From Lachnospiraceae bacterium (GTDB lineage: Bacteria; Bacillota; Clostridia; Lachnospirales; Lachnospiraceae), in assembly GCA_014804485.1 (NCBI GenBank), contig JAAUZT010000011.1, positions 25,474-89,473 of the forward strand: DNA of 64,000 bases, in the 5' to 3' direction. Below, piece after piece: positions 7,093 through 61,125 of the stretch. Position numbers and translations under genes: made by a program. The stretch's first letter is position 1. Every line of letters begins with the position of its first letter. The notes under the pieces are model-generated. The model saw only the letters and a program-made list of their open reading frames with translations, had not been told where the DNA came from and searched no databases.

Positions 7093-9738
7093 ATGGCAGA
7101 ACTAACCCCCATGATGCAACAGTATCTGGAAACAAAAAAAGAATATCAGGATTGCATTCTTTTGTATCGTTTGGGAGATTTCTACGAAATGTTTTACGAG
7201 GATGCGCTTCTGGCCTCAAAAGAACTGGAAATCACGCTGACAGGCAAGAGCTGCGGACAGGAGGAGCGGGCACCTATGTGCGGCGTACCTCATCATGCAC
7301 TGGAAGGATATCTGAGCAAGCTGGTATCTAAGGGGCATAAAGTCGCGATCTGTGAACAGATGGAGGACCCGAAACTTACCAAGGGAATCGTTAAGCGTGA
7401 AGTCGTGCGTATCGTGACGCCGGGAACGAATCTGAATCTGCAGACCATAGAGGAATCACGCAATAACTATCTTATCTGTATTGCTTATTTACCCGGAAAA
7501 ACAGGTATATCCGTAGCGGATGTCACTACCGGAGATTATTATCTGACAGAAGTGGAGGATATTCGTAAGCTGCAGGATGAGATCAATAAATATGAACCTT
7601 CCGAGATCGTCTGCAATGAGCAGTTTCTTGTCAGCGGTTATGAGATCGATGATCTGAAAGACCGTCTGGGTGTTACAGTCTATTCTCTGCAATCCCACTA
7701 TTTTGATGAGGATAATTGTCGTAAGATATTAATGAAACACTTCCGCGTAAACACGCTCTCCGGCCTGGGTGTAGAGGACTTTCCGACGGGGCTGATCGCT
7801 GCGGGAGCACTTTTACAATATTTATACGAGACACAGAAGACGTCTCTTGCACATTTTACGCACCTATATCCTTATCTTACGAATAAGTACATGCTGTTAG
7901 ACAGTTCTACGAGACGTAATTTGGAATTGACTGAGACTCTTCGGGAGAAACAGAAAAAAGGATCGCTGCTGGGAGTTCTCGATCGGACCAAAACTGCCAT
8001 GGGCGGCCGGCTGTTGCGCAAATATATTGAACAGCCTTTGATCGATAAGACTAAAATGGAGCAGAGACTGGATGCTGTAGAGGTGCTTAGTCAAAAAAGC
8101 GTAGACAGAGATGAACTGCGAGAGTATCTGAATACGATATACGATCTGGAACGGCTTCTTGGTAAGGTGAGCTATAAAACGGCAAATCCTCGTGATCTGA
8201 TTGCTTTTCGCAATTCACTTGCCATGCTGCCATCTATTAAAACAGTGCTGGGTGATCTTGATACAGTTCTTTTACAGGACATTAATGACCATATAGACTC
8301 TTTGGAGGATATCTACCATCTGATAGATGATTCAATCATAGAGGAACCGCCTATCTCGATCAGAGACGGCGGCATGATCAAAGAAGGGTTCAGTGACACC
8401 ATAGATTCACTCCGCAGCGCCAAGACAGACGGCAAGAACTGGCTTGCAGAGCTGGAGGAGGCGGACAGAGAGCGCACGGGAATTAAGAATCTGCGTATCA
8501 AATATAATAAAGTATTTGGCTATTATTTTGAGGTGACCAACTCCTATAAAGATCTCGTTCCGGAGGATTACATCCGCAAGCAGACCCTGGCTAATGCAGA
8601 GCGCTACACCACACCCCGTCTGAAGGAGCTGGAAGATTCCATTCTCAATGCGGAGGATAAGTTGTCTTCTCTGGAGTACGATCTGTTCTGTGAAATCAGA
8701 GAGGCTATTGCGGCCGAGATGGAGCGCATTCAGAAGACGGCAAGAGCTATCGCGAAGCTGGATGTATTTTCTTCGCTGTCCTATGTAGCCGAGCGCAATC
8801 AGTACATACGTCCTTCGCTCAACGAAAAGGGAATCATTGACATCAAAGGCGGCAGGCATCCCGTAGTGGAACAGATGATTGAACATGATATGTTTATTGA
8901 GAATGACACTTATCTGGATAACCGGAAACATTGCATAGCAGTGATTACGGGACCGAATATGGCGGGCAAGTCCACCTATATGCGTCAGACAGCCCTGATT
9001 GTCCTTTTAGCCCAGATTGGCTCTTTCGTGCCGGCCAGAAAGGCGAATATCGGCATTGTGGACCGCATCTTTACCCGTGTAGGGGCTTCTGACGATCTTT
9101 CCAGTGGTCAGTCTACCTTTATGGTGGAGATGAATGAGGTCGCTAATATCCTGAGAAACGCCACTGCCAACAGTCTGTTGGTGTTGGACGAGATCGGCAG
9201 GGGCACATCCACCTTCGACGGACTGAGTATTGCGTGGGCAGTCATCGAGCATATCAGCAACCGTAAGATTCTGGGGGCGAAGACACTGTTCGCGACCCAC
9301 TATCATGAGCTGACGGAACTGGAAGACAAGATGGATAATGTGAATAATTACTGTATTGCCGTTAAAGAAAAGGGCGATGATATCGTGTTCCTTCGCAAGA
9401 TTATCAAGGGCGGCGCGGATAAAAGCTACGGCATACAGGTAGCGAAGCTGGCCGGTGTGCCGGATATGGTAATCGACCGTGCAAAAGAGATCGTAGAACA
9501 ATTAAGCGACAACGATATTATTGAGAAAGTTCAGAATATTGAGGTCAACATCAAGAGCGAGAAACGCAAACCGGTAAAATACGACGAAGTTGATCTGGAG
9601 CAGATGTCACTTTTTGACACGGTGAAGGATGAGGATATCATTAAGGAACTGCAGGAGATCGATGTGGGACACCTGACGCCTGTTGATGCGCTTAATACCT
9701 TATATCGTCTGCAGAATAAACTGAAAAACCGATGGTAA
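7093..9738 (+). CDS. mutS: DNA mismatch repair protein MutS
   Basis: An 881-residue MutS, the mismatch-recognition ATPase. The N-terminal mismatch-binding domain has the Phe-x-Glu wedge in GDFYEMFYEDA near residue 30. The ABC-type ATPase has Walker A GPNMAGKST near residue 620 and LVLDEIGRGTSTFDG near residue 695. The C-terminal helix-turn-helix dimerisation region is present, and a SLFDT motif resembling beta-clamp binding motifs lies near residue 840. It follows miaB by 21 bases and is separated from mutL by a repeat-bearing gap of 144 bases. Confidence 0.97.
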   Translation: MAELTPMMQQYLETKKEYQDCILLYRLGDFYEMFYEDALLASKELEITLTGKSCGQEERAPMCGVPHHALEGYLSKLVSKGHKVAICEQMEDPKLTKGIVKREVVRIVTPGTNLNLQTIEESRNNYLICIAYLPGKTGISVADVTTGDYYLTEVEDIRKLQDEINKYEPSEIVCNEQFLVSGYEIDDLKDRLGVTVYSLQSHYFDEDNCRKILMKHFRVNTLSGLGVEDFPTGLIAAGALLQYLYETQKTSLAHFTHLYPYLTNKYMLLDSSTRRNLELTETLREKQKKGSLLGVLDRTKTAMGGRLLRKYIEQPLIDKTKMEQRLDAVEVLSQKSVDRDELREYLNTIYDLERLLGKVSYKTANPRDLIAFRNSLAMLPSIKTVLGDLDTVLLQDINDHIDSLEDIYHLIDDSIIEEPPISIRDGGMIKEGFSDTIDSLRSAKTDGKNWLAELEEADRERTGIKNLRIKYNKVFGYYFEVTNSYKDLVPEDYIRKQTLANAERYTTPRLKELEDSILNAEDKLSSLEYDLFCEIREAIAAEMERIQKTARAIAKLDVFSSLSYVAERNQYIRPSLNEKGIIDIKGGRHPVVEQMIEHDMFIENDTYLDNRKHCIAVITGPNMAGKSTYMRQTALIVLLAQIGSFVPARKANIGIVDRIFTRVGASDDLSSGQSTFMVEMNEVANILRNATANSLLVLDEIGRGTSTFDGLSIAWAVIEHISNRKILGAKTLFATHYHELTELEDKMDNVNNYCIAVKEKGDDIVFLRKIIKGGADKSYGIQVAKLAGVPDMVIDRAKEIVEQLSDNDIIEKVQNIEVNIKSEKRKPVKYDEVDLEQMSLFDTVKDEDIIKELQEIDVGHLTPVDALNTLYRLQNKLKNRW

Positions 9739-57212: not shown

Positions 57213-57911
57213 TTACCCCACATCTGCAAGCGGGATAAATCTGTGGTCGTCTCCATCTTTCGCAGTATCAGTGTAAGTCTCCAGTCTGGTCACCTGATAA
57301 GCTGACGGGGAAATTTCTACACCCGCAAACTGACACAGTTTTTCAAATACCATCGTAGGCTTAATGTTTCCGCTGCTGCTTGCATTGACAAGCATGTGAA
57401 TCGTTCCGTTCTGTCCCGCTCCGAGTTCATAGATGCCTTGTTTTAAATCCAATTCAACAACACTTTTCTTCGTTTCTTTCATATAAGGGATGGTAACCTG
57501 ACTGCAGAAATCCTGTATTTTACCTTCCAGATCATCAATCGGAAAACTGCCCTCTTTCATCCGCAGGCTGTAAGAAGCCGCTGCAACGCTGGACATGGCA
57601 TTTTTCGCGTGCTCCGGCAATATAGTTACAGAAAGCACTTCCACGCCTTCCACCATGACCTGATTCAGTGCATCTTTCATATCCTCCGTAGAAGTCATGG
57701 AGAGCACTTCAATATCCATATATTCCCCACGGCTCTCAATCCCTACGCCCAAAGGCGCCGCAAAGGACATGATTTGGTGGGGGCTAAAGCCTTCCGAATA
57801 CTTAACGTCAATTTCTGCCCGCCTAATCGCTTTCTGGAAAAAACGCATCATGTCCAGATGTCCTATAAACTTCATTGTGCCGTATTTAGCAAACTTGATT
57901 CTGATTTTCAT
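57213..57911 (-). CDS. TIGR03936 family radical-SAM-associated protein (DUF2344)
   Basis: A 232-residue protein with no radical SAM motif of its own. The N-terminal KIRIKFAKYGTMKFIGHLDMMRFFQKAIRR and the SEGFSPHQIMSFAAPLGVG segment define TIGR03936/DUF2344. It normally sits directly after the TIGR03960 radical SAM gene; here a three-gene module of unrelated origin separates them. ATG 57911; ATG 57917 is two codons further upstream. Confidence 0.92.
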   Translation of the reverse strand: MKIRIKFAKYGTMKFIGHLDMMRFFQKAIRRAEIDVKYSEGFSPHQIMSFAAPLGVGIESRGEYMDIEVLSMTSTEDMKDALNQVMVEGVEVLSVTILPEHAKNAMSSVAAASYSLRMKEGSFPIDDLEGKIQDFCSQVTIPYMKETKKSVVELDLKQGIYELGAGQNGTIHMLVNASSSGNIKPTMVFEKLCQFAGVEISPSAYQVTRLETYTDTAKDGDDHRFIPLADVG

Positions 57912-57998
57912 TAACAACCTCCGTTTTCATTAGAGTTCTGAACATAAATCAAAGGCTTCTCAGCATCTTTAAATATGCTTGAATTGAAAATGTATGTT

Positions 57999-58211
57999 TT
58001 ACGCCATTTTTTCATATTCATCATGCAAATCTTTTGCAAGGTACTCATCGCTCATACAGTGCATATCCGATACTCCGTTTTTAACAAGTTGATATAAATC
58101 AGAGTGATAGAAAAATGTAAGCGCCTCGTCAAACGATATGCCTGTTATCCCGGCAAACAAACTGACCACGCGGGCATATTTCATTTGCAATAAAATCGGA
58201 TTCGCATTCAT
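57999..58211 (-). CDS. Small alpha-helical protein, third gene of the DUF3990 module
   Basis: A 70-residue protein with LLQMKYARVVSLFAGITGISFDEA-like helices and a MHCMSDEYLAKDLHDEY tail. It resembles small proteins commonly encoded beside DUF3990 genes and may be DUF3791-related, but I cannot be sure. No signal peptide or membrane helix. Its ATG shares ATGA with the DUF3990 stop, direct evidence of translational coupling. It may be a neutralising partner of the DUF3990 enzyme, an inference. Confidence 0.75.
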   Translation of the reverse strand: MNANPILLQMKYARVVSLFAGITGISFDEALTFFYHSDLYQLVKNGVSDMHCMSDEYLAKDLHDEYEKMA

Positions 58212-58681
58212 GCAGGCTCTCTCCTCTCATACTTTAGATATTGGTCAATTACATCTTGTGAGCGGAATACTATCTGAAAATTAGGTTTCTCATAGCGCAG
58301 CCGCTTGATAGCTTCTGTCATGTCAATCAGACCGTCATAAAACAGTTCAACAGTATTAAATACTTTATCATTCGCCACGCCGCCCATAACAATCTCATAA
58401 TCTGTGTCATCTTCACCGCGCCGGCATTTGAGAACAAACTCTAACCATTCTTCCGAATAACTGCCAAATTTCCTCACTTTACATTCATTTATAGCACTAT
58501 CATCCAATGTGTAAACAGAAACAACTGCTGATTCCCCTTTATCTTTAAACTTTTTACACCATTTTTGTGCCTGATCCAAAAGCGGCGTTGTGTAAAAGCC
58601 ACGCCCAAAATCTACATTGGTTCTGGAATGTATAATGTCCGGATTTACGACTTCCGTATATGAACCATGATATAGAATCAT
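58208..58681 (-). CDS. DUF3990 protein, ADP-ribosyltransferase-like
   Basis: A 157-residue protein of the DUF3990 family. The N-terminus MILYHGSYTEVV places a His at residue 5 in an HGS motif, and DFGRGFYTT places a Tyr at residue 30, the spacing and context of the H-Y motifs of PARP/diphtheria-type ADP-ribosyltransferases. A late MGGVANDKVF segment is conserved in the family. Catalysis is inferred from these motifs only. ATG 58681 overlaps the upstream DUF3791 stop as ATGA, and the stop overlaps the next gene in the same way. Confidence 0.82.
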   Translation of the reverse strand: MILYHGSYTEVVNPDIIHSRTNVDFGRGFYTTPLLDQAQKWCKKFKDKGESAVVSVYTLDDSAINECKVRKFGSYSEEWLEFVLKCRRGEDDTDYEIVMGGVANDKVFNTVELFYDGLIDMTEAIKRLRYEKPNFQIVFRSQDVIDQYLKYERREPA

Positions 58682-58911
58682 ATCGTTATTCCTCTCTTTT
58701 TCATAAGTTCCAAAATATCTTCTACGATATATTCCTTGCCCTGCGTATGCAGGATATCGTAGCATGGCACGATATAACTGTATAAAATGTCACTTTTTAC
58801 CGTCAATGCATCATAAATCTTCTCCGCCGCAACATTCAAATGTATTGCTATATTTTCCACACAAAAAATAGCAAATTCCAGCTCTTTTTCATTTTGAATG
58901 ACATCTGCCAT
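58678..58911 (-). CDS. DUF3791 family small protein
   Basis: A 77-residue protein matching DUF3791: ELEFAIFCVENIAIHLNVAAEKIYD, SYIVPCYDILHTQGKEYIVEDI near residues 44-66. DUF3791 genes are frequently next to DUF3990 genes in Firmicutes. It follows the TIGR03960 gene by 22 bases with AGGAG before its ATG, so it can be read from that operon. Translationally coupled to the DUF3990 gene. Confidence 0.85.
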   Translation of the reverse strand: MADVIQNEKELEFAIFCVENIAIHLNVAAEKIYDALTVKSDILYSYIVPCYDILHTQGKEYIVEDILELMKKRGITI

Positions 58912-58933
58912 AATAAAGATTCTCCTATTTTAC

Positions 58934-60802
58934 TCACATTCTCTCATAACAGATTCCGCCGCCGAAACGGTTTGCTCCGCATCCCTGACACTGCACCTTA
59001 CAGTTGGGGGACACTGTCTGCGCCTGCGCTTTTTTCCACTCTCTTAAAAGAAATTCCCTTGTTACGCCGCAGTCCAGGAAATCCCACGGGAAAATCTCAT
59101 CATCTGCCCTCTCCCTCGTGGTATAGAATCCGATATCCAGCCCACAGTCTTCAAAGCTTTTCATCCATACGTCATTATGGAAATACTCGCTCCAAGAGTC
59201 AAACAGACAGCCATTCTTATAAGCCTCCATAATCACCTGCGCGATTTTGCGGTCACCTCTGGCAAACACACCCTCCAGTACACTCACGTCCGCCTCATGC
59301 CAGTTATATTTGATGCTCTTCTGATTGAGCTGCTCCATAATACCCCGCTTCGTCTGATAAGCCTTCTCGACAAAGTCCTCCTTCGTGCACATAGATGCCC
59401 ACTGAAAGGGTGTAAAGGGCTTCGGAATGAAAAAGGAAGTGCTGGTGACGATCTGCACTTTGCCGTTGACACGCTTGTCCTTCGGAACGGTATCAAAAAA
59501 AGTCGCCGCAATCTTATTGGAAAGATCGCCGATGCCCCGGATATCTTCCTCTGTCTCTGTGGGAAGTCCCAGCATGAAATAGAGTTTTACCCTGGTCCAT
59601 CCGCCCTGAAAGGCAAGTGCCGCGCCTTTTAAGATCACTTCCTCCGTCAATCCCTTATTGATTACGTCACGCAGTCTCTGACTGCCCGCTTCCGGCGCGA
59701 AGGTAAGGCTGCTCTTCTTGACATCCTGTACCTTGCTCATCACATCCAGAGAAAAGGCATCAATACGCAGAGACGGAAGGGAGATATTCGTATGTCTCTG
59801 ACCGCAGTCTTCAATCAGGAAATCCAAAAGTTCATCCAGATGGGAATAATCGCTGGAACTTAAAGAACTTAAGGAAATCTCTTCATATCCTGTATTTTTA
59901 AGCATTTCCACAGCATATTCCTTAAGTTTGTCCACATTTCGCTCCCGCACGGGACGATATAACTGTCCAGCCTGACAGAACCGGCAGCCGCGGATGCAGC
60001 CCCTTTGAATCTCCAATACTACCCGGTCCTGTGTCACCTTAATAAAAGGAACTACCGGCTTTAGCGGATAATGCGTATTTGTCACATCCATCACGATCTC
60101 TTTTAAGATAGTATCGGGAATATCATCATACTGCTTACGCCTTCCCTGTATCGTACCGTCCTCGTTATAAAGCTCCTCATAGAACTGCGGCACATATATG
60201 CCGGGAATCTTTGCGGCGCCGCGTAAGAAATCCTGTCTTGACCCGCCATTATCCCTATTTTCAATATACCAGTTAAATAATCTGCGGTACTGTGTCTCAC
60301 CTTCACCGATATAGAACAGATCAAAAAATTCTGCAATCGGCTCCGGATTATAGGTGCACGGACCGCCGCCGATCACGATAGGCATATCCTCGCCCCGGTC
60401 TTTAGCATATAGTGGAATCTGTGCAAGATCCAGTACCTGCAGAATATTGGTATAGCACATTTCATACTGAATGGTTATCCCGAGAAAATCCATATTTTTG
60501 ACCGGTTCCTGCGACTCTAAGCCAAAAAGCGGAATATTCTTATCCCGCATAATCTTATCCAGATCAACCCACGGAGAATAGACACGCTCACACCACACGT
60601 CCTCCCACTCGTTCAGCATACTATATATAATCTGGATGCCCAGATGAGACATACCGATCTCGTATACATCCGGAAAACACATGGCAAACCGTATTGCCAC
60701 CTGTGATTTATCCTTTACGACAGAGTTCACCTCATTGCCGATATAACGCGCAGGCTTCTCCACCTGCATTAAAATGTCGTCACTTAAAGCCAGTTTTCTC
60801 AT
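58934..60802 (-). CDS. TIGR03960 family B12-binding radical SAM protein
   Basis: A 622-residue enzyme with an N-terminal cobalamin-binding-like domain (about residues 40-200, GMSHLGIQIIY near 51) and a radical SAM core with the CxxxCxxC cluster in CIRGCRFCQAG near residue 270. A Cys-rich C-terminus (QCQGCGANRFGGGICY) follows. The family is linked to ribosomal-gene neighbourhoods in Clostridia but its reaction is not established. Its 5' leader carries three 78-base repeats. Confidence 0.93.
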   Translation of the reverse strand: MRKLALSDDILMQVEKPARYIGNEVNSVVKDKSQVAIRFAMCFPDVYEIGMSHLGIQIIYSMLNEWEDVWCERVYSPWVDLDKIMRDKNIPLFGLESQEPVKNMDFLGITIQYEMCYTNILQVLDLAQIPLYAKDRGEDMPIVIGGGPCTYNPEPIAEFFDLFYIGEGETQYRRLFNWYIENRDNGGSRQDFLRGAAKIPGIYVPQFYEELYNEDGTIQGRRKQYDDIPDTILKEIVMDVTNTHYPLKPVVPFIKVTQDRVVLEIQRGCIRGCRFCQAGQLYRPVRERNVDKLKEYAVEMLKNTGYEEISLSSLSSSDYSHLDELLDFLIEDCGQRHTNISLPSLRIDAFSLDVMSKVQDVKKSSLTFAPEAGSQRLRDVINKGLTEEVILKGAALAFQGGWTRVKLYFMLGLPTETEEDIRGIGDLSNKIAATFFDTVPKDKRVNGKVQIVTSTSFFIPKPFTPFQWASMCTKEDFVEKAYQTKRGIMEQLNQKSIKYNWHEADVSVLEGVFARGDRKIAQVIMEAYKNGCLFDSWSEYFHNDVWMKSFEDCGLDIGFYTTRERADDEIFPWDFLDCGVTREFLLREWKKAQAQTVSPNCKVQCQGCGANRFGGGICYERM

Positions 60803-61125
60803 AAATTACTGTTCCTTATTTTCCTTAAACTTTCAAATATGTTGCTGGGAAGAATGCATGCTTTTAGCATTCTTCCAGACAAGAAAGGCTTGCTTGCAAG
60901 CCGTAGAATTTCTTATATGTTGCTGGGAAGAATGCATGTTTTTAGCATTCTTCCAGACAAGAAAGGCTTGCTTGCAAGCCGTAGAATTTCTTATATGGCG
61001 CTGGGAAGAATGCATGTTTTTAGCATTCTTCCAGACAAGAAAGGCTTGCTTGCAAGCCGTAGAATTTCTTAGCCGGCGTTCTATGACGGCTTAGAAATTC
61101 TTCTTGTCTTAGTATATAGGATATA
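60803..61125. other. Intergenic region carrying the 78-bp array
   Basis: The 323-base gap between the TIGR03960 gene and the 154-residue gene is mostly the three-copy repeat and a trailing hairpin. The repeats keep frame because 78 is a multiple of three, so open frames cross the array on both strands, but they have no ribosome site and are repeats of the DNA rather than evidence of protein. Confidence 0.8.
60837..61070. repeat. Three tandem 78-bp direct repeats with hairpins
   Basis: Units at 60837-60914, 60915-60992 and 60993-61070 are exactly 78 bases each and nearly identical; only a few positions differ (for example c/t near the loop, TTG/GGC near the third start). Each contains GGAAGAATGC/GCATTCTTCC and GGCTTGC/GCAAGCC inverted repeats. 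A partial inverted tail follows at 61061-61095 (AGAATTTCTTAGCCG with CGGCTTAGAAATTCT). On the minus strand the array lies in the leader of the TIGR03960 gene. Confidence 0.92.

Follow-up and report, generated by a model that had tools for sequence, protein, structure and literature searches.

What are three small, overlapping genes doing between two genes that usually adjoin each other? The question is raised by a 64,000-nucleotide stretch of Lachnospiraceae bacterium DNA (contig JAAUZT010000011.1, positions 25,474 to 89,473; hereafter the window), in which a gene for a DUF3990 protein, flanked by two smaller genes, a and b, lies between those encoding the TIGR03960 and TIGR03936 proteins. The trio occupies positions 58911-57999 of the minus strand in the order a, DUF3990 ADP-ribosyltransferase (ART), b, each stop and the following start being shared as ATGA. 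A first-pass annotation of this DNA had suggested a toxin-antitoxin or a defence/regulatory ART system, and a toxin-antitoxin or defence function indeed appears to be the best reading. With a predicted ART fold, conserved His5 and Tyr30 and a recurrent gene trio, the locus is probably a mobile toxin-antitoxin module, in which a DUF3990 ART toxin would be restrained by a two-part antitoxin of the DUF3791 family and would serve in defence or addiction. Families of the trio and of its flanks were assigned from Pfam, NCBIfam and PADLOC model matches (table 1). All three proteins match the PADLOC candidate PDC-M13 models best, and thus the trio is an already catalogued defence candidate; PDC-M13 comprises the same gene set and is a computational candidate. 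The available portion of one survey counts 3,324 occurrences of PDC-M13 in rumen genomes, among the most frequent defence candidates counted (PMC13356809). Yet the literature on DUF3990, DUF3791, PDC-M13 and PDC-M10 accessible to us, partly as excerpts (preprints and most subscription papers fall outside this scope), yielded neither an activity for the trio, nor an experiment on PDC-M13, nor a stated mechanism for so frequent a candidate.

The central protein is predicted to adopt an ART fold (pLDDT 91.9). Comparison of the model with PDB structures places it nearest to RES toxins of toxin-antitoxin pairs and to ParT, the latter being the top VIA match, with an entry title describing an ADP-ribosylating toxin of Prs. 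The ART relationship anticipated by the first-pass annotation is therefore recovered in the structure model, and the PARP-like motifs that it had read, HGS (His5) and GRGFY (Tyr30), are both present and kept in every readable member of a diverse set of 60, as is Gln136 (table 1). The latter would be the third active-site residue, a placement based on its predicted strand (134-139) and its position, not on residue-level superposition. An H-Y-[EDQ] clade of the ART superfamily is defined in the accessible text of PMC9503650, and DUF3990 displays both a predicted ART fold and conserved His, Tyr and E/D/Q residues; the Pfam ART clan also includes DUF3990, according to passages of PMC7955679. A further DUF3990 match (G195:C81:162862-163047), weak at E 5.3e-4 and under the cut-off, lies within a 3377-aa open frame of another genome, perhaps a polymorphic toxin.

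DUF3791 (PF12668) is the sole credible Pfam match of both small proteins, that of b in the window reaching 22.9 bits, below the cut-off of 25. Among b proteins, 27 of 42 match PF12668 at E <= 0.01, and comparison of the a and b profiles gives an alignment of 57 columns (E 1.1e-5, 82%), where an earlier comparison with other alignments had reached E 0.0037 and 3.7%. Given the PF12668 matches of b proteins and this profile alignment, we take a and b to be paralogues. The flanking 77- and 70-aa proteins had been proposed in the first-pass annotation to be antitoxin or specificity factors; the antitoxin reading remains likely, while the two are not unrelated but members of the same DUF3791 family, and are more likely the halves of one antitoxin than an unrelated antitoxin plus specificity factors. 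The a protein is predicted to be all-helical (AlphaFold2, pLDDT 94.8) and a structure search found no clear PDB counterpart for it; neither a nor b has a helix-turn-helix (HTH) match in Pfam. His55 of a (window 58749-58747, minus strand) is invariant in 51 aligned proteins and sits in a Leu-His-Thr motif whose Leu and Thr are nearly invariant, and a nearly invariant His-Cys is found at His51 of b. Such His conservation is strict for an antitoxin. At three loci (L056, L059 and L061), a and the last part of a serine-recombinase-like open reading frame (ORF; named by eye) share one frame upstream of the ART, possibly as a recombinase-DUF3791 fusion.

The ATGA overlaps that the first-pass annotation had described as joining DUF3791, DUF3990 and the third gene can be read at 58681-58678 and 58211-58208. 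Their conservation was scored in a close set, the best 80 of 136 species-genome stretches encoding a DUF3990 relative, which was found via peptide patterns of the window protein and so favours close relatives, a few genomes supplying two loci. Under a longest-ORF rule that chose the wrong frame or start at some loci, the a-ART overlap measures 4 bp in 74 loci, 1 bp in three and another length in two, with none found in one; for ART-b the corresponding numbers are 66, two, nine and three. Overlaps kept in so many of the 80 relatives are not accidental. All three genes are present by hidden Markov model (HMM) coverage in 76 of the 80 loci, among them L026, with a stop 11 codons into the ART, and the trio is undisrupted in 75 (HMM coverage plus stop check). 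The ART is disrupted beside undisrupted a and b in four loci (L026, L028, L048, L050) and one further locus (L087) is decayed, but a disrupted a or b beside a sound ART occurs in none of the 80. All three genes have dN/dS values of 0.06-0.23 against two near relatives, L008 and L009, one of which contains Ns. Pairwise gene distances correlate across 68 loci (r 0.84 for a-ART, 0.89 for b-ART and 0.85 for a-b), which indicates joint inheritance only, because relatedness alone yields such correlation. Among 146 genomes of the order, 40 have a DUF3990 match and 34 a DUF3791 match, the two occurring together in 26 where about nine would be expected if they were independent. A second copy of the module is present in the same genome (G000 C2:73664-74253; L143:1635-2502), where its neighbours are, as named by eye, an FtsX-like permease on one side and an ABC ATPase on the other; the a ORF of this copy remains open, as does a b-like ORF recognised by eye, and its ART is split in two and lacks a part.

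The order a, ART, b also recurs in less biased sets, other orders forming much of the remainder. Separating genes by slashes and joining fused ones by hyphens, the arrangements found are a/ART/b, b/a/ART, fused b-a/ART, ART/b/a, an ART-b fusion, ART with a partner of ~150 aa (PDC-M10) and ART with an HTH partner (PDC-M42-like). Many gut bacteria, as well as plasmids, carry relatives in one or other of these orders. At the order level (30 HMM-labelled loci, one per genome, of the 40 genomes with a match) there are eight ART/M10B, seven a/ART/b, five ART alone, five ART/M42B-like, two ART/b/a, two a/ART and one ART/b, the M10B and M42B labels being partly so by construction, as their models were built from seven and five loci of the same set. 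PADLOC bears out the M10B label of L149 and the M42B label of L167 and L169. One locus labelled ART/M10B (L156) shows, in its wider version L203, separate b- and a-like ORFs by eye, and so is ART/b/a. In the Bacteroidales, the order of L086, 14 of 149 genomes have a match (11 above the cut-off), and removal of five weak or partial loci from 24 leaves 19: seven a/ART/b, five b/a/ART, two a/ART, two ART/b, two ART alone and one ART/M10B.

A fused partner occurs in pBF9343 and related Bacteroides plasmids, where a protein of 147-149 aa overlapping the ART by ATGA represents b and a fused: by hhalign it aligns to a with E 9.9e-12 (97.7%) and to b with E 6.2e-5 (36.7%), shuffled controls giving at most 1.2%. 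One phage-collection contig carries an ART-b fusion that is truncated at the end of the contig. For the ~150-aa M10B partner, the first half aligns to a with E 0.0025 (4.8%) and the second to b with E 0.028 (0.9%), shuffles rising to 0.3%. That second half also aligns to the b half of the fused protein, with E 4.8e-5 (40%), in a comparison made without shuffled control. The L167 and L169 partners (~210 aa) carry HTH_3 at the C-terminus, and homology of HTH-type partners to a or b goes undetected by profile comparison, though they are alike by eye. L203, in a type I restriction-modification operon, has one ART followed by two tandem b-a like pairs (7457-8434, by eye).

The distribution of the trio in related genomes provides clues on how it came to its present site. 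PF13151 is patchy, with a match in 21 of 41 genomes (its own genome counted). TIGR03936 was matched in 34 of the 41 and its locus retrieved for 29 relatives; TIGR03960 adjoins it in 26, with an ART between them in none, and was not seen within the retrieved stretch in the other three. The hand-computed gap between the two genes stays below about 130 bp in 23 relatives and is larger in L094 (~0.28 kb), L118 (0.58 kb) and L095 (1.26 kb); it is ~1.0 kb in the trio carriers, namely the window and the near relatives L008 and L009, which have the same trio at the same site. Since the trio is absent from all 26 relatives showing both neighbours, it was inserted, and the earlier claim that it interrupts the pair by insertion holds. 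The gaps of L095 and L118 hold other small genes, which suggests a spot that accepts insertions; the site looks like an insertion hot spot. By eye, a YqeY-like gene is found in both of these gaps and a metallo-beta-lactamase-like gene in that of L095.

A plasmid search returned 72 records, 42 of them from Bacteroides and 28 typed conjugative. Genes for ParA, zeta toxin, Fic or HipA adjoin some plasmid copies, and in two plasmids the module follows shortly after ParA and one further small gene. On a Moraxella plasmid, the ART, then a b-like (by eye) and a DUF3791 gene stand between HsdM and HsdS, and every junction is a 4-bp overlap. Viral contigs hold one DUF3990 relative and no relative of the ART-b fusion, the best PHROGs match was no better than E 0.029, and a phage collection gave seven records, two of them one Geobacillus phage. 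The partner proteins of the phage-collection loci L125 and L219 recur unchanged in plasmids L124 and L218, and in L125 ParA stands beside them. It is therefore doubtful that the phage-collection records are phages, and we count the module as plasmid-borne, not phage-borne. A quick ART tree gave at least 14 phylum-label changes, without shuffled control and with genomes possibly mis-binned, and is not used as evidence.

From 20 wider loci, ten large neighbours belonging to five loci were chosen by eye and scanned with PADLOC. Three of these (L200, L201 and L203) are embedded in operons for type I restriction-modification, L206 has BrxC on one side and PglX on the other, and the L202 neighbour protein had no PADLOC match; the four restriction-modification/BREX loci of 20 are a minimum, five loci having been scanned, and imply no enrichment. 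In L206, the same place as L159, the DUF3990 gene has no recognised DUF3791 partner. For trio-type loci, 148 of 283 flanking ORFs were drawn at random, seven were dropped by hand (near-duplicate loci, two module-related ORFs and a host gene that overlapped), which left 141 for the scan. PADLOC matched 107 families, the top 25 being mostly HTH-type models in 6-8 proteins, beside others of methylase, radical-SAM or restriction type, such as mad2, mad3, pVip and mREase_IV, each of which had 2-4 matching proteins. The Pfam matches were to HTH, transporter and enzyme families of an ordinary kind. Among the PADLOC matches listed, and in a scan without control, trio-type loci show no clear defence island, enrichment being claimed neither way.

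The trio has in common with type II toxin-antitoxin systems its small, adjacent, overlapping genes and its mobile, patchy distribution. An antitoxin that binds DNA and represses its own operon is frequent, though not general, in such systems; HTH_3 is matched in the L167 and L169 partners, and no HTH in a or b. PDC-M10 and PDC-M42 have the DUF3990 core in common with it (the window ART also matches M10A at 7.7e-37 and M42A at 2.8e-9), as well as an adjacent small partner, but PDC-M10 has a single partner of ~150 aa and PDC-M42 an HTH partner of ~210 aa, where the trio has two separate DUF3791 proteins. DarTG likewise pairs an ART toxin with its antitoxin, the macrodomain protein DarG; neither a macrodomain nor a DarT domain is matched in Pfam by the trio proteins. 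CmdTAC is, similarly, a three-gene ART defence system with two partners; its third component is a SecB-like chaperone, as given in the available text of PMC11618068, whereas here the third protein is a DUF3791 paralogue, and no Pfam SecB match was found in either small protein.

How might such a module work? DUF3990 would act as a toxic ADP-ribosyltransferase that uses NAD+ and has His-Tyr-Gln as its active site, and the two DUF3791 paralogues, translated before and after it via the ATGA overlaps, would jointly bind and block it as a two-part antitoxin. Infection or replicon loss might upset the balance, and the freed toxin would then halt growth, most likely through ADP-ribosylation of a macromolecule, which we would guess somewhat ahead of simple NAD+ destruction. 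Toxicity, neutralisation, target and trigger are all inferred here. An ART toxin paired with a two-part antitoxin accounts for the fold and its invariant site, for the coupled and sometimes fused genes, for decay that affects one side, and for both the mobility and the embedding in restriction-modification and BREX operons. Weighing against it, eight of the 146 genomes (G044, G085, G087, G100, G103, G141, G143 and G157) have a DUF3791 match without a DUF3990 match, which makes us slightly less confident; these perhaps represent solitary antitoxins or DUF3791 with a different partner.

Alternatively, DUF3990 could be a RES-like toxin that depletes NAD+ instead of modifying a macromolecule, its partners plugging the pocket. 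We regard this as possible but rather unlikely. The nearest solved folds are RES toxins and ParT, RES modules (Xre-RES, ParST, MbcAT, NatRT) likewise have a small adjacent partner, and RES toxins degrade NAD+, as indicated by a title cited in PMC9503650 and, for NatT, by the accessible part of PMC11535050. However, the active sites differ, with an invariant H-Y-Q in DUF3990 and R/R/Y/N/S in RES (the residues being those given in passages of PMC11535050); the top VIA match, ParT, bears a title that names it as an ADP-ribosylating toxin; and no Pfam RES model matches the DUF3990 protein at E <= 1. The partners differ as well, RES modules having Xre/ParS-type antitoxins, of which there is none here, in place of DUF3791. 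It is also conceivable, at a comparably low probability, that the trio is a selfish addiction module which stabilises plasmids and persists on chromosomes without phage defence. The 72 plasmid records, 28 of them typed conjugative, the position shortly after ParA in two plasmids, the lack of a clear defence island among the PADLOC matches listed and the insertion between two ordinary genes in the window would all fit, while the embedding of several relatives in restriction-modification and BREX operons speaks against it, although the two functions are not exclusive and an addiction module may also defend.

Two further scenarios are less likely. A regulatory ART that is no toxin but reversibly modifies a host protein, perhaps tied to the radical SAM pair, would suit a trio lying 22 bp past TIGR03960, whose transcript it may share, but the absence of the trio from this site in 26 of 26 relatives with both neighbours, the varied neighbours elsewhere and an ART broken in five of 80 loci though otherwise well kept make this improbable. 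Even less credible, to the point of being very improbable, is an effector that is secreted and has its immunity proteins alongside: DUF3990 does form the C-terminal domain in a putative Rhs effector of Serratia, according to the available text of PMC4524185, but the window protein is a bare 157-aa domain starting at the HGS strand, with no delivery domain in Pfam or NCBIfam and with partners on both sides.

Returning to the toxin with a two-part antitoxin, we tentatively put forward a broader scenario, for which the odds are somewhat against us. DUF3990 modules might form one large ART toxin family with a split, duplicated small-helical antitoxin whose halves are shuffled, merged or swapped for a one-piece HTH partner, so that PDC-M10, PDC-M13 and PDC-M42 would be variants of one system; within restriction-modification and BREX operons they might act as a built-in suicide back-up, one antitoxin half being the infection sensor. 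The candidate itself is catalogued, but we found no earlier proposal of a two-part antitoxin, of its permuted orders or of an H-Y-Q site. If true, an H-Y-Q ART with a two-part DUF3791 antitoxin would give a function to two common families of "unknown function" and merge three catalogue entries into one system. Why the antitoxin should be split in two, and why the toxin should reside inside restriction-modification and BREX operons, are pertinent questions.

Table 1. Features of the trio and its flanks, in window coordinates.
Feature	Position	Strand	Remarks
Gene a, DUF3791, 77 aa	58678..58911	-	PF12668 E 4.1e-20; PDC-M13A E 2e-35; proposed antitoxin half
DUF3990 ADP-ribosyltransferase-fold protein, 157 aa	58208..58681	-	PF13151 E 2.4e-50; PDC-M13B E 2.7e-67; proposed toxin
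Gene b, divergent DUF3791 paralogue, 70 aa	57999..58211	-	PF12668 E 8.6e-5; PDC-M13C E 1.6e-35; proposed second antitoxin half
ATGA stop/start overlap a-ART	58678..58681	-	read directly; 4 bp in 74/80 relatives
ATGA stop/start overlap ART-b	58208..58211	-	read directly; 4 bp in 66/80 relatives
His5 codon (HGS motif)	58667..58669	-	59/59 readable, diverse set
Tyr30 codon (DFGxGFY motif; GRGFY in window protein)	58592..58594	-	60/60 diverse set; 74/75 close set
Gln136 codon, strand 134-139, proposed third active-site residue	58274..58276	-	56/56 readable, 4 unreadable, diverse set; role inferred
GGAGA, likely ribosome-binding site of gene a	58921..58925	-	inside the 22 bp after the TIGR03960 stop
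TIGR03960 radical SAM protein, upstream host gene outside module	58934..60802	-	NCBIfam match
TIGR03936, downstream host gene outside module	57213..57917	-	NCBIfam match

Regarding the finer anatomy of the locus, the DUF3990 start is the ATG at 58681, a longer ORF of 185 aa beginning within gene a. Gene a starts 22 bp past the TIGR03960 stop, and gene b ends 81 bp ahead of the listed TIGR03936 start. A promoter/terminator scan found 12 promoter-like sites against a shuffle mean of 9.5, and seven terminator-like sites against 2.8, three of the seven being one repeated hairpin upstream of TIGR03960. This repeat (window 60833-61094) consists of the hairpin GGCTTGCAAGCAAGCC followed by TTTCTTGTCT, present three times at a spacing of 78 bp.
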